From the NCBI GenBank assembly GCA_009701185.1, contig WLKQ01000005.1:1-43498 (forward strand): 43,498 nucleotides of DNA, written 5' to 3'. Positions 2,965 to 31,686 of the stretch are shown piece by piece. The stretch is from Actinomycetota bacterium. Its GTDB lineage: Bacteria > Actinomycetota > Actinomycetes > Nanopelagicales > Nanopelagicaceae. The first letter of the stretch is position 1. Each line of letters opens with the position of its first letter. Position numbers and translations under genes: made by a program. The notes beneath the pieces were generated by a model, which saw only the letters and a program-made list of their open reading frames with translations, searched no databases and was not told where the DNA came from.

Positions 2965-3213
2965 TTAAGCCGTTGGTTCGAGATTTTCGATTGTTACTTT
3001 GCCTTCGTTAATTTCGCGAAGGGCAATTGATAATGGCTTCTCATGAACGTGTGTATCAACCAAAGGTCCCACGTACTCGAGCAGACCCTCGCCGAGTTGT
3101 GAGTAATAAGCGTTGATCTGACGAGCGCGCTTTGCAGCATAGAGAACGAGGCTGTACTTAGAGCCACTCTTCTCTAGAAGTTCGTCAATAGGTGGATTTG
3201 TGATGCCATCCAT
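2965..3213 (-). CDS. rpoZ: RNA polymerase omega subunit
   Basis: 82 aa; [20 protein letters not shown]...[14 protein letters not shown]; between gmk and coaBC. Confidence 0.95.
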
Positions 3214-3241: not shown

Positions 3242-4114
3242 TCAAGATATCAATCCTATCAGTTGTTCTACAACCCGCTCGACCTGATCATTGACGATCA
3301 CCACATCAAAGGATGAGGCGGCGGCAAGCTCTTCCTGGGCAAGGGCTAAGCGTTCGGCCCGTCGCTCAGGCCCATCTGTCCCACGGCCTTCCAATCGAGA
3401 TACGAGCTCCTCCCATGTAGGAGGCTCCAAGAAAACCAGAATTGATTGAGCAAGGTGGCTTTTGACTTGCTTAGCTCCCGCAATCTCAATCTCTAATAAA
3501 ACATTTCTTCCCTTCAAAAGCGCCTCTTCAACTGGTGAACGTGGTGTTCCATACCGGTTGCCCGCAAACTGCGCCCACTCCAGAAATTCATCATCCTTGA
3601 TACGGCGCGTAAACTCCTCATCAGAAATAAAGTAATAATCAACGCCATCGTGTTCATTTATTCGTGGAGAGCGCGTGGTGGCCGAGATGCTGACCCAAAA
3701 ATCTCCAGATGTTCGCAGGGTGCTTGCGACTGTACTTTTTCCAACTCCCCCAGGTCCAGATAAAACCAAAAGTTTTCCAGGTGAAACAGCATGAGTAGAT
3801 TTCATAAATTCATGGCGCAACTGCTTGAGTTGGTGCCGACCCAATCCTTGGATTCGACGTGTAGGAGAAATATTTAAACGCTCCATCAATGTCGTCGCTC
3901 TAACTTTTCCAACACCAGATAACGCTTCCAATAATTCACGAACACGCATTTTCCCAACGCTATCTTCGTTAGCTGCAATTTCAAGAACTGTATCGATGGA
4001 AAATTCGCCACTTTTAATCTTGCCTTTAACTTCGGCTCTCCGTTTTCGCGATTGTGCAGCTTTGGCAAGCGCCATGGCCCTTTGCTCAGGCGTTAGTTGC
4101 GGAGGGGCTCCCAT
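3242..4114 (-). CDS. gmk: Fusion protein: actinobacterial integration host factor (mIHF) domain + guanylate kinase
   Basis: 290 aa single frame; residues ~1-103 mIHF-like (LTPEQRAMALAKAAQSRKRRAEVKGKIKSG...VGKMRVRELLEALSGVGKVRATTLMERLNISPTRRIQGLGRHQ), then Gmk (KLLVLSGPGGVGKSTVASTL...VSISATTRSPRINEHDGVDYYFISDEEF). Confidence 0.93.
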   Translation of the reverse strand: MGAPPQLTPEQRAMALAKAAQSRKRRAEVKGKIKSGEFSIDTVLEIAANEDSVGKMRVRELLEALSGVGKVRATTLMERLNISPTRRIQGLGRHQLKQLRHEFMKSTHAVSPGKLLVLSGPGGVGKSTVASTLRTSGDFWVSISATTRSPRINEHDGVDYYFISDEEFTRRIKDDEFLEWAQFAGNRYGTPRSPVEEALLKGRNVLLEIEIAGAKQVKSHLAQSILVFLEPPTWEELVSRLEGRGTDGPERRAERLALAQEELAAASSFDVVIVNDQVERVVEQLIGLIS

Positions 4115-4123
4115 GAGCTAAAT

Positions 4124-4837
4124 CTAGTCCACAGAGTTAATCTGTTGCGCTATTTCTATCGCTCGTTCGCGCATTGCATTCTCTCCATGTTGCCAATACT
4201 GCGTAATTGGCCGTCCAATCACTACAAGATTGGCTCCACGGTCGATGGCTTCACGTGGTGTCATCGTTCTTACTTGATCATCTGCAGCCGATGTATCACG
4301 AGGCCGGACACCTGGTGTAATAATCGTAGTTTCTTCACCAATGCTATGACGGATGGCGGTTATCTCTAGTGGAGAGCAAACTATTGCACGGGCACCAGCA
4401 TCGGTAGCTAATCGCGCTAAGCGTACGGCGCTATTTAGAGCATTATCTTTAAAACCAATATCAATGACATTTTCCTCAGATAGTGAGGTCAAAATAGTTA
4501 CTCCAGTTACAAATGTTGATGGCAACGCATCGACAGCCGCACGTACCATCGCCGATCCACCTGAAGCATGAACAGTTAAATACTTAGGATTCAAAGCGGC
4601 TACGGCTCGCGAGGCTCCGGCGACAGTATGTTCGATGTCATGGAGTTTGAGATCAAGAAAGATATCGGCGGATGTATTACTTGTAATCGCTCGAACTCCA
4701 TCTGCTCCAAATGTCAGATAGAACTCTAAACCCAATTTATAAACCGAGACAATATTTTCAGTTGCTTTTACCCAACTAATTGCAGTGCTTAAATCTGAGG
4801 TATCAACGGCTAAAACTATTGGTGCCTTATTCGCCAT
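4124..4837 (-). CDS. pyrF: Orotidine 5'-phosphate decarboxylase
   Basis: MANKAPIVLAVDTSDLSTAISW...DIFLDLKLHDIEHTV...ITPGVRPRDTSAADDQVRTMTPREAIDRGANLVVIGRPIT; ORF track extends to 4903, but start at the internal ATG (4837) is more likely. Confidence 0.95.
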   Translation of the reverse strand: MANKAPIVLAVDTSDLSTAISWVKATENIVSVYKLGLEFYLTFGADGVRAITSNTSADIFLDLKLHDIEHTVAGASRAVAALNPKYLTVHASGGSAMVRAAVDALPSTFVTGVTILTSLSEENVIDIGFKDNALNSAVRLARLATDAGARAIVCSPLEITAIRHSIGEETTIITPGVRPRDTSAADDQVRTMTPREAIDRGANLVVIGRPITQYWQHGENAMRERAIEIAQQINSVD

Positions 4838-28228: not shown

Positions 28229-29527
28229 ATGACCGAGATTAATCCGATGATGCAAGCATCAGCAGCAAGTGCGCTGATTGGAGATCCTGCAGCCTTTGGC
28301 CGCGTAGCCGAAGATGGAACTGTTTATGTTCGTACCAGCAATGGTGAAGTAGCCGTAGGTTCATACCCTGGTAAAACTGCTGATGAAGCACTCACATACT
28401 TTGTTCGAAAATTTGAAATGTTAGCCGCAGAGGTTGCACTACTTGCTGCGCGTATCAAGAGCGGTGCTCTAGTTCCTTCCGATGCTTATGCCGCGGTAAA
28501 GAAACTGCGTGAGCAAGTTAAGGAACTCAATGGCGTCGGTGATCTCGAGGCGCTAGCTGCCTCCGTCGAGCAGATTGAACCTCTCATCGAAGGCCATCGT
28601 GAGGCCTATGAATCTAAGAAAGCTGCCGAAGTTGCGGCCAAGAAAGAGCGACTAGAGCAAATTTTAGTTGAAAAAGAAAAGATTGTTGCAGAGGCAGAAT
28701 CACTTGCTCTCTCTGAAAGTTGGAAAGTAACAGGTGATCGTCTTAAAGTTTTGTTAGATGAGTGGAAATCTGCGCCTCGTTTGGATAAGAAGAGCGATGC
28801 CGATTTATGGAAGCGTTTTTCTTCCTCTCGAAATAAGTTTGATAAGCGTCGCCGTACACACTTTGCCGCACTTGAAGCAACGCAGAGTGTCGTAGCAGAT
28901 GCCAAGAAGGCGATTATTGCAGAGGCGGAATCTCTAGCAACATCAACTGATTGGGTGCCAACGGCTAAAAAGTTCAAAACGCTTATGGATGCCTGGAAGG
29001 CCTCTGGTCGTGGCAAACCAAGTGATGATGCAAAGATGTGGGCCCGATTTAAAGCTGCTCAAGATCAATTCTTCACTGCAAAAATCGCTGATCTTGAAAA
29101 ACGCGATACAACTATGGCTGCAAATTTAATCAAGCGTGAAGAGTTAGTTATACAGATTGAAGCGTTAGTTCCATTTACAAACTTAGATGAAGCTAAAAAG
29201 GCACTCCGTGAGCACATGAATTCATGGAGCAAAATCGGTATGACGCATCGAGATAAGCGCGCCGCCCTAGATGCACGTGTACACGCAGTAGAGAGCGTGA
29301 TAAAAGAGGCAGAGGCCGAGAATTGGCGAAAGACAGATCCAGCCGCAAAAGCCCGTGCTGGTGAAGTTGTTAAGCAACTTGCTGATTCGATAGAGAGCTA
29401 CGAGAAGATCGCCGCTAAATCATTAGCTGCCGGAAACTCGAAGAAGGCTGCCGAAGCAACCGAGTCAGCGGCTGCACGTCGCGTCTGGTTGGCTGAAGCC
29501 GAGAAAGCTTTAGCTGAATTCAACTAA
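28229..29527 (+). CDS. DUF349 domain-containing coiled-coil protein
   Basis: 432 aa; repeated modules EAESLALSESWKVTGDRLKVLLDEWKSAPRLDKKSDADLWKRFSSSRNKFDKRRRTHF / EAESLATSTDWVPTAKKFKTLMDAWKASGRGKPSDDAKMWARFKAAQDQFF; next to rel as in other actinobacteria. Confidence 0.93.
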   Translation: MTEINPMMQASAASALIGDPAAFGRVAEDGTVYVRTSNGEVAVGSYPGKTADEALTYFVRKFEMLAAEVALLAARIKSGALVPSDAYAAVKKLREQVKELNGVGDLEALAASVEQIEPLIEGHREAYESKKAAEVAAKKERLEQILVEKEKIVAEAESLALSESWKVTGDRLKVLLDEWKSAPRLDKKSDADLWKRFSSSRNKFDKRRRTHFAALEATQSVVADAKKAIIAEAESLATSTDWVPTAKKFKTLMDAWKASGRGKPSDDAKMWARFKAAQDQFFTAKIADLEKRDTTMAANLIKREELVIQIEALVPFTNLDEAKKALREHMNSWSKIGMTHRDKRAALDARVHAVESVIKEAEAENWRKTDPAAKARAGEVVKQLADSIESYEKIAAKSLAAGNSKKAAEATESAAARRVWLAEAEKALAEFN

Positions 29528-31686
29528 TTATTAGTTGTTCGATAGACGTCGTAGACGCCTTCGATAGTTCGAACCGCTGCCAGAACTGCATCTAAGTGTG
29601 TTGCATCTGCCATTTCGAAAGTGAATCGCGAGAAGGCAGTTCGATCTTTTGAGGTGCTCACCGATGCACTCAAAATATTTACATGTTGATCCGAAAGCGT
29701 GCGCGTAACATCTGCCAAAAGTGAAGCTCTGTCGAGGGCTTCAACTTGAATGTTAACGAGGAAGACCGAGCCTGCACCTGCCCGCCAACTGACTTTAACA
29801 ACTCGATCCAACTGTGTTTCACGTAAATCTGCAGCGTTGACGCAATCACCGCGGTGAATAGATACACCGCTCCCCTTTGTAATGAAACCCATAATGTCAT
29901 CACCGGGTACAGGCGTACAGCATCGTGCTAATTTCACAAGGACATCATCGGTACCCTCAACATCTACAGCATTACTTGACCTGCGTGTTGCAGGTGCTCG
30001 CGTTGGAAGTACATCCATAGTCGGCTCTGGATGTGAATCATCTCCCCCAAGTGCTACGACCAACTTATCGATAATTGATGCCGCAGAAACATGGCCATCA
30101 CCAACAGCTGAATACAAACCTTCAATATCGCTATAACGAAGTTCGTGTGCTAGCTCTAGCAATGAATGGCCAGCGAAAATCTTTTGCAACGGTAAGCCCG
30201 CTTTTCGCATCTGGCGCGCAATAGATTCACGCCCTGCATCAATAGCTTCCTCGCGGCGCTCTTTGCTAAACCATGCTTTAATTTTAGAGCGAGCTCGAGG
30301 GCTTTGCACAAAATTCAGCCAGTCTCTACTCGGTCCAGCGTGCTCTCCCTTATTGGTAACAATCTCCACGACATCACCATTGTTAAGCCTAGATTCGAGT
30401 GGGACTAAACGACCGTTAACTTTTGCTCCTGCACATCTAATTCCAACATCGGTGTGTACAGAGAAAGCAAAGTCCACTGGTGTGGATCCACCAGGTAGTG
30501 CAACAACGCTGCCTTTAGGAGTAAAGACAAAGACTTCTGGGGAACCTAAATCAAAGCGCAAAGATTCCAAAAATTCAGATGGATCTTCAGTCTCTTTTTG
30601 CCATTCATGAAGTTGACGCAGCCAAAGCATCTCTGGTGATGTCTCATTGTTCTCGTGGCCTTGCTTGTACTTCCAGTGCGCAGCAATACCGAACTCAGCC
30701 CGTGTATGCATGTCATAGGTACGAATTTGAATCTCGATCGCTTTACCCGTCGGACCAATCACTGTGGTGTGTAGAGATTGGTATAAGTTAAATTTGGGCA
30801 TCGCGATGTAATCCTTAAAGCGGCCTGGAACTGGCGACCATCTAGCGTGGATAGATCCCAGAACTGCGTAACAATCCCGAACATCATCAACTAAGACTCG
30901 GATACCAACCAAGTCATAAATATCATTGAATTCACGGCCGCGAACTACCATCTTTTGATAGACAGAGAAGAAATGCTTTTGCCTACCGGTCACTGTCGCA
31001 TGGATTGAATCCTTAGCTAAATCGTCAGTGACAACCTCAATAACTTCACGTGTTAATAAATCTCGAGAAGGTGATCTCTCGGCAACTAAACGCGAAATCT
31101 CTTCGAACTTTTTGGGCTCTAGAACTTCAAAAGATAAGTCTTCTAGCTCCCACTTGATTGCATTCATTCCAAGGCGGTGCGCAAGCGGTGCATAAATATC
31201 TAGCGTTTCGCGTGCCTTTCTTTCAGCACTTTCTACGGCTACGAATCTCCAGGTTCGAGCGTTATGTAAACGATCAGCGAGTTTGATAACCAGGATTCGG
31301 ATATCGCGAGACATTGCAACAACCATCTTGCGCACTGTTTCAGCTTCTGCTGTTGGTCCATAGGTAAGTCGATCTAACTTTGTTACTCCATCGACTAAAT
31401 TGGCAATCTCGTCACCAAAATCATGCCGTAACTCTCGCAAGGAGTACGACGTATCTTCAACGGTGTCATGTAAAAGCGCGGCGATCAATGTCTCGGAGTT
31501 CAAGCCGAGATCAGCGAGAATTTGAGCAACGGCAACCGGGTGTGTAATGTAGCGTTCACCAGATTTACGTAACTGCCCCTCGTGGGCCTTTTCAGCAACT
31601 AGAAACGCACGCTCAACATCAGCGACATCGGTTCCGGCATGGTTTTCCTTGAGCGCACTAATTACTGGTGCAATCAAGGTGTCCAC
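29524..31686 (-). CDS. rel: Bifunctional (p)ppGpp synthetase/hydrolase (Rel/SpoT-type)
   Basis: 720 aa; HPVAVAQILADLGLNSETLIAALLHDTVEDT (HD), synthetase YQSLHTTVIGPTGKAIEIQIRT, TGS, C-terminal ACT. Confidence 0.98.
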   Translation of the reverse strand: MDTLIAPVISALKENHAGTDVADVERAFLVAEKAHEGQLRKSGERYITHPVAVAQILADLGLNSETLIAALLHDTVEDTSYSLRELRHDFGDEIANLVDGVTKLDRLTYGPTAEAETVRKMVVAMSRDIRILVIKLADRLHNARTWRFVAVESAERKARETLDIYAPLAHRLGMNAIKWELEDLSFEVLEPKKFEEISRLVAERSPSRDLLTREVIEVVTDDLAKDSIHATVTGRQKHFFSVYQKMVVRGREFNDIYDLVGIRVLVDDVRDCYAVLGSIHARWSPVPGRFKDYIAMPKFNLYQSLHTTVIGPTGKAIEIQIRTYDMHTRAEFGIAAHWKYKQGHENNETSPEMLWLRQLHEWQKETEDPSEFLESLRFDLGSPEVFVFTPKGSVVALPGGSTPVDFAFSVHTDVGIRCAGAKVNGRLVPLESRLNNGDVVEIVTNKGEHAGPSRDWLNFVQSPRARSKIKAWFSKERREEAIDAGRESIARQMRKAGLPLQKIFAGHSLLELAHELRYSDIEGLYSAVGDGHVSAASIIDKLVVALGGDDSHPEPTMDVLPTRAPATRRSSNAVDVEGTDDVLVKLARCCTPVPGDDIMGFITKGSGVSIHRGDCVNAADLRETQLDRVVKVSWRAGAGSVFLVNIQVEALDRASLLADVTRTLSDQHVNILSASVSTSKDRTAFSRFTFEMADATHLDAVLAAVRTIEGVYDVYRTTNN

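Follow-up and report, generated by a model that had tools for sequence, protein, structure and literature searches.

The DNA analysed here, a stretch of 43,498 nucleotides that we refer to as the window, belongs to a MAG that totals 1.38 Mb over 84 contigs and is 88.6% complete. Among named relatives, those nearest to this genome are Candidatus Planktophila and further MAGs of freshwater actinobacteria; the single-contig record of strain IMCC25003 is one of them. On the minus strand, a detail absent from the initial annotation, a single open frame carries the nucleoid protein mIHF directly into guanylate kinase (Gmk). The fused gene lies within a pyrimidine operon, carB-pyrK-pyrD-pyrF. Its neighbors on the same strand, some named by recognition from sequence, we take to be carB, pyrK, pyrD and pyrF upstream and rpoZ, coaBC and metK downstream. 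The features of the locus are as follows.

4124 to 4837, minus strand: pyrF-like gene, upstream of the fusion across a gap of 9 nt (from the open reading frame list, start set at MANKAP)
3242 to 4114, minus strand: mIHF-Gmk fusion gene, 290 aa, a single open frame with its ATG at 4114 and its stop codon at 3242-3244
3806 to 4102, minus strand: mIHF domain, residues 5-103 (NF041260, 2.6e-36, above cut-off)
3854 to 3859, minus strand: Arg86-Arg87 within ISPTRRIQGLG, the conserved basic patch of mIHF (from alignment with solved sIHF and mIHF)
3779 to 3805, minus strand: linker, residues 104-112 (MKSTHAVSP), the stretch separating the two family matches
3803 to 3805, minus strand: internal in-frame ATG (Met104), without support as a start (no Shine-Dalgarno pairing, not conserved)
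3251 to 3778, minus strand: guanylate kinase domain, residues 113-288 (TIGR03263, 1.2e-64, above cut-off)
3734 to 3757, minus strand: P-loop GPGGVGKS, residues 120-127 (G120, P121, V124, G125 and K126 invariant in 64 fused proteins)
2965 to 3213, minus strand: rpoZ-like gene, downstream of the fusion across a gap of 28 nt and followed by coaBC and metK (from the open reading frame list)
29524 to 31686, minus strand: full-length Rel with HD, RelA_SpoT, TGS and ACT domains

With a full-length Rel in the window, the organism probably makes (p)ppGpp. Beside rel, on the opposite (plus) strand at 28229-29527, is a gene for a DUF349 protein with three repeats. The genome also has two HU-type genes. 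In M. tuberculosis the gene order is likewise mihF-gmk-rpoZ (PMC6155035).

That the 290-residue frame joins an mIHF to a guanylate kinase, as proposed in the initial annotation, was borne out by curated family models, both of which scored above their cut-offs. The NCBIfam model actino_IHF (NF041260) matched at 124.2 bits against a cut-off of 60, over model positions 3-101 of 102, and guanyl_kin (TIGR03263) matched at 217.2 bits against a cut-off of 160.45, over positions 1-177 of 180. Pfam placed H2TH_5 (PF22525) at residues 33-103 (3.9e-25) and Guanylate_kin at residues 114-286 (2.6e-44), and structure matches paired the N-terminal part with sIHF of Streptomyces (4itq; residues 4-104) and with mIHF (6tob; residues 2-103), and the C-terminal part with many guanylate kinases. 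The two domains are thus both complete and are joined by about nine residues. The mIHF domain had previously been described as near-complete; its presence stands, but its extent was understated, since the match is essentially complete. The junction sequence had been quoted correctly. The NCBI model for the IHF part is of the equivalog-domain type, which is in line with its curators knowing of IHF inside larger proteins.

Given that the window stems from an 84-contig MAG, a frameshift or assembly error might have fused two separate genes, an error that the initial annotation had itself named as fatal to its reading. In a genus sample of 101 genomes, however, 91 had a match and 90 of these carried the full-length frame without a stop, at 57-100% identity; the sole exception (G057) was a fragment. 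Eight of the 90 are single-contig genomes that are 99-100% complete, and the fusion protein is 94% identical to that of an independent MAG over 290 residues. An assembly artefact is therefore excluded for practical purposes. A search of the window's own genome for a second mIHF or Gmk, a check suggested earlier for mIHF, found neither in this 88.6% complete MAG, in which H2TH_5 had a single match.

The fusion is not unique to this genome either, being genus-wide, present in most sampled genera of the family and present in nearly all of family f32. Every member of our order sample belonged to one family, Nanopelagicaceae, with 15 genera represented; the genes were fused in nine of these (g1, g2, g3, g4, g6, g9, g10, g12 and g14) and separate in g5, g7, g8, g11, g13 and g15. 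The class sample, with which the proposed search for IHF-Gmk fusions across Actinomycetota was extended, revealed the unbroken frame in family f32 and in genus g89 of family f30 as well. In f32, sampled at one genome per genus, 58 of 60 genomes had the fusion, with NCBIfam matches for both domains. Canibacter oris (Microbacteriaceae) falls with f32 on the tree with a support of 97, and f32 is therefore probably Microbacteriaceae, a family for which some database guanylate kinases are listed at about 300 residues. In f30 the genes were fused in four g89 and three g102 genomes, and no fusion was present in the other genera or in two g102 genomes. Within g102, the genomes with fused and with separate genes (L161, L162 and L163 versus L151 and L166) form a close natural pair in which the effect of fusion could be compared. 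The fusion was absent from 60 further genomes across the phylum, in which mIHF and Gmk genes were commonly adjacent, in agreement with the initial description of separate, neighboring genes as the usual actinobacterial arrangement.

Several other records deserve mention. Two small f32 genomes of 1.4 and 1.5 Mb (L158 and L159; G437 and G439) encode a stand-alone Gmk and have no mIHF match, a state that can be read as loss or re-splitting of the fusion. In some other actinobacteria (L147, L150, L152, L153 and L075), gmk had no recognisable adjoining mihf. The sequences in two public MAG records (L015 and L042) are clearly Planktophila-like although their titles name Streptomyces griseus and Bifidobacterium breve; these titles look wrong.

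How often the two genes became joined was addressed with a tree built from 88 sequences, each a concatenation of mIHF and Gmk, on which the fused state needs five changes, at least three of them forced by well-supported branches. For AU tests, groups were named by family beforehand, the fused set itself being already known. A single origin of all fusions was rejected, whether Nanopelagicaceae and f32 fusions were constrained to one clade (p-AU 0.0012) or f32 and f30 fusions were (p-AU 0.013); one clade of Nanopelagicaceae fusions was not rejected (p-AU 0.27). As judged from these trees, the Nanopelagicaceae, f32 and f30 fusions are of separate origin, giving at least three origins. Since the fusion was found in none of the 60 further genomes and adjacency is common there, adjacency is ancestral and fusion derived. 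The unfused relatives, in which the two genes are usually adjacent, suggest a route. In most g7 and g11, several f30 and other genomes, the start of gmk and the stop of mihf share 4 nt, and in other unfused relatives the two genes are spaced by a few nt, so that one small mutation could fuse the frames. We propose that an ancestor within Nanopelagicaceae lost the stop codon between adjacent, often overlapping and translationally coupled mihf and gmk, through a small mutation that either was in frame or restored the frame, and that comparable fusions arose separately in other families.

Whether the fused frame yields one protein or two depends on the status of the internal ATG. The initial annotation noted that this codon lacks an evident Shine-Dalgarno sequence, and indeed the pairing energy between the 20 nt upstream of Met104 and the anti-Shine-Dalgarno is +0.4 kcal/mol, compared with -1.7 to -6.8 kcal/mol for eight gene starts in the window. 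By itself this is weak evidence, because the fusion's own start (-3.0 kcal/mol) and other starts of the operon also pair weakly. A stronger argument for one polypeptide is provided by the sequences of relatives: Met104 is retained in one subclade only (about 25 sequences), is replaced by TTA in the close relative L014 and is missing from most other lineages, yet the frame remains open at every sampled junction despite variable linker sequence. The absence of a Shine-Dalgarno match together with this lack of conservation makes a single polypeptide the most likely product, and the earlier suggestion to that effect is probably right. The alternative is that one frame gives two products, the fusion and a Gmk-only protein initiated at codon 104 or at TTG codon 116, which would leave the enzyme partly free. 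It draws on the position of the ATG exactly on the domain border, on its retention in the subclade, on the starts of the family's unfused gmk genes, which occupy corresponding positions, the furthest immediately ahead of the first strand, and on nine relatives (L023-L026, L028, L030, L034, L052 and L058) in which the internal ATG follows a stretch that is rich in purines and resembles a Shine-Dalgarno (-6.9 to -8.6 kcal/mol), with GAGGAG in some. Relatives with such a stretch may make a minor, second, Gmk-only product. The stretch, however, also simply encodes Glu-Glu close to the ATG, and with no such pairing at the ATG of the window and no retention of the codon outside the subclade, we consider two products distinctly unlikely here.

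Both halves of the putative single polypeptide have the hallmarks of maintained proteins. Across 64 fusions there is little or no variation at R23 and R26 in mIHF or, in Gmk, at the P-loop, TTRxPR, GMP-site and catalytic residues, and the Gmk motifs GPGGVGKS, SxSxTTRxPR, GxRYGTP and LEIEIxGA are conserved. Among the basic residues of mIHF, R23, R26, K30, R86 and R87 are conserved in fused sequences (R86 in 40 of 40 and R87 in 38 of 40 from the family), and position 89 is Gln instead of Arg. Values of pN/pS were 0.19 for mIHF, 0.32 for the linker and 0.15 for Gmk, which are rough figures, as the set used is close to saturation at synonymous sites; on this comparison of sequences, both domains are under purifying selection. 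No decay of mIHF after fusion was seen, judging by the conserved basic residues, by a net charge similar in fused and unfused mIHF, and by its pN/pS. The linker is variable in sequence and nearly fixed in length within most Nanopelagicaceae lineages: the span from mIHF Gln95 to the Ser-Gly of the P-loop is 20-25 residues in most of the family and 23 in the majority, with 34-35 residues in g10 and 23-27 in f32. An AlphaFold2 model of the fusion (mean pLDDT 89.6, lowest at 62 in the linker block; pTM 0.60) predicts two confidently folded domains, a short flexible linker and an uncertain relative placement. A Foldseek search with the Gmk part of the model gave M. tuberculosis Gmk (1s4q and 1znw) as the best match, at 44% identity and an E of about 1e-21.

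Two mIHF positions are the columns most associated with fusion. Of 37 unfused sequences, 25 have a basic residue at position 89 (window 3848-3850) and 11 an acidic one at position 60 (window 3935-3937); of 51 fused sequences, none is basic at position 89 and 50 are acidic at position 60. Significance is unreachable for this pattern because there are only three independent contrasts. A non-basic residue at position 89 could mean altered DNA binding in the fusions. We do not read the lost Arg89 as evidence of such a change, given the three independent pairs and given that the unfused genus g7 carries the fused-type residues at both positions. The pattern fits equally well with g7 having split a former fusion, with a shared ancestor and with a functional change.

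Taken together, we favor, with a probability of roughly 70%, the reading that the fused mihf-gmk gene encodes a single bifunctional protein, about 32 kDa in size, whose domains work side by side. The N-terminal domain would be the cell's actinobacterial-type IHF and the C-terminal domain its guanylate kinase, no other copies having been found in the MAG. As nearly all genomes of the genus, including single-contig ones, have one match per genome, it should be this protein that provides the essential GMP kinase. With no other Gmk found in the genome, we infer the corresponding activity (ATP + GMP to ADP + GDP). The mIHF domain would bind and bend DNA, as does M. tuberculosis mIHF, which is nucleoid-located (PMC3724605). 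Its basic motif is kept, and if it does bind DNA, it follows from the architecture that a GMP kinase would be tethered to the nucleoid, with part of the Gmk held there and the two activities in a forced 1:1 stoichiometry. Such a product would presumably retain both activities, and no special regulation would be needed to account for it.

A more elaborate possibility is that the fusion is a regulated device, in which GMP, GDP or (p)ppGpp bound to the kinase alters DNA binding by mIHF, or DNA binding alters the kinase, linking the state of the nucleoid to GTP supply, and in which a Gmk dimer would create a bivalent, DNA-bridging mIHF. The initial annotation had raised GMP/ppGpp influence on DNA binding and had pointed to Gmk as a (p)ppGpp target in some bacteria; in indirect support, (p)ppGpp does inhibit the GMK of several phyla, via the dimer interface (PMC6783271). 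Regulation of this kind would also be in keeping with the full-length Rel in the window, with at least three origins and near-universal presence in f32, and with the nearly fixed linker length in most Nanopelagicaceae lineages. Repeated fusion is, however, to be expected anyway because the genes already overlap; the linker is predicted to be flexible with an uncertain placement of the domains, closely related genera have the genes separate, and two small f32 genomes have a Gmk and no mIHF that we could find. We therefore regard a regulated device as unlikely. Highly doubtful is its specific form as a nucleotide-sensing nucleoid protein, with a dimeric Gmk turning mIHF into a bivalent bridger of DNA that binds differently with GMP, GDP or (p)ppGpp, directly coupling guanine nucleotide supply to chromosome organisation; if true, it would explain the repeated origin of the fusion and its fixation in whole lineages.

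If the fusion is made as one polypeptide, as we favor, an essential enzyme of the GTP pathway would be carried by a DNA-binding nucleoid protein in very common freshwater bacteria and in nearly all sampled f32 genera. Actinobacterial IHF would then tolerate a C-terminal load of 20 kDa, and both proteins would be made 1:1. The natural series of separate, overlapping, fused and apparently re-split genes makes a clean comparative system, which bears on whether the fusion of a nucleoid protein to a nucleotide enzyme is functional or a neutral outcome of gene overlap in an operon. In the open-access papers that we searched, we found no description of an mIHF-Gmk fusion.

Three known systems offer a comparison. 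The fusion resembles actinobacterial IHF (mIHF of Mycobacterium, sIHF of Streptomyces) in its complete domain, H2TH fold and conserved basic residues, in an identity to relatives in the range of 40-50%, and in its location at the same spot between pyrF and gmk. It is unlike them in having no stop and running in frame into guanylate kinase, and in that Q89 replaces the third basic residue of RRxR. With bacterial Gmk, such as M. tuberculosis Rv1389 (1s4q/1znw), it shares a complete domain, the P-loop and the GMP-site residues, and it is the only Gmk found in its genome; it differs in its N-terminal DNA-binding domain of about 105 residues and in that its Gmk part has no start codon or Shine-Dalgarno of its own. 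The third is the 'guanylate kinase' of about 300 residues from f32, which has the same two domains in the same order and in one frame, but which is of separate origin on the tree and has a longer, unrelated linker and an AGPTAVGKG P-loop. The fusion protein is best described as a fused form of two known families, real and little discussed, in which both halves look like ordinary working proteins.
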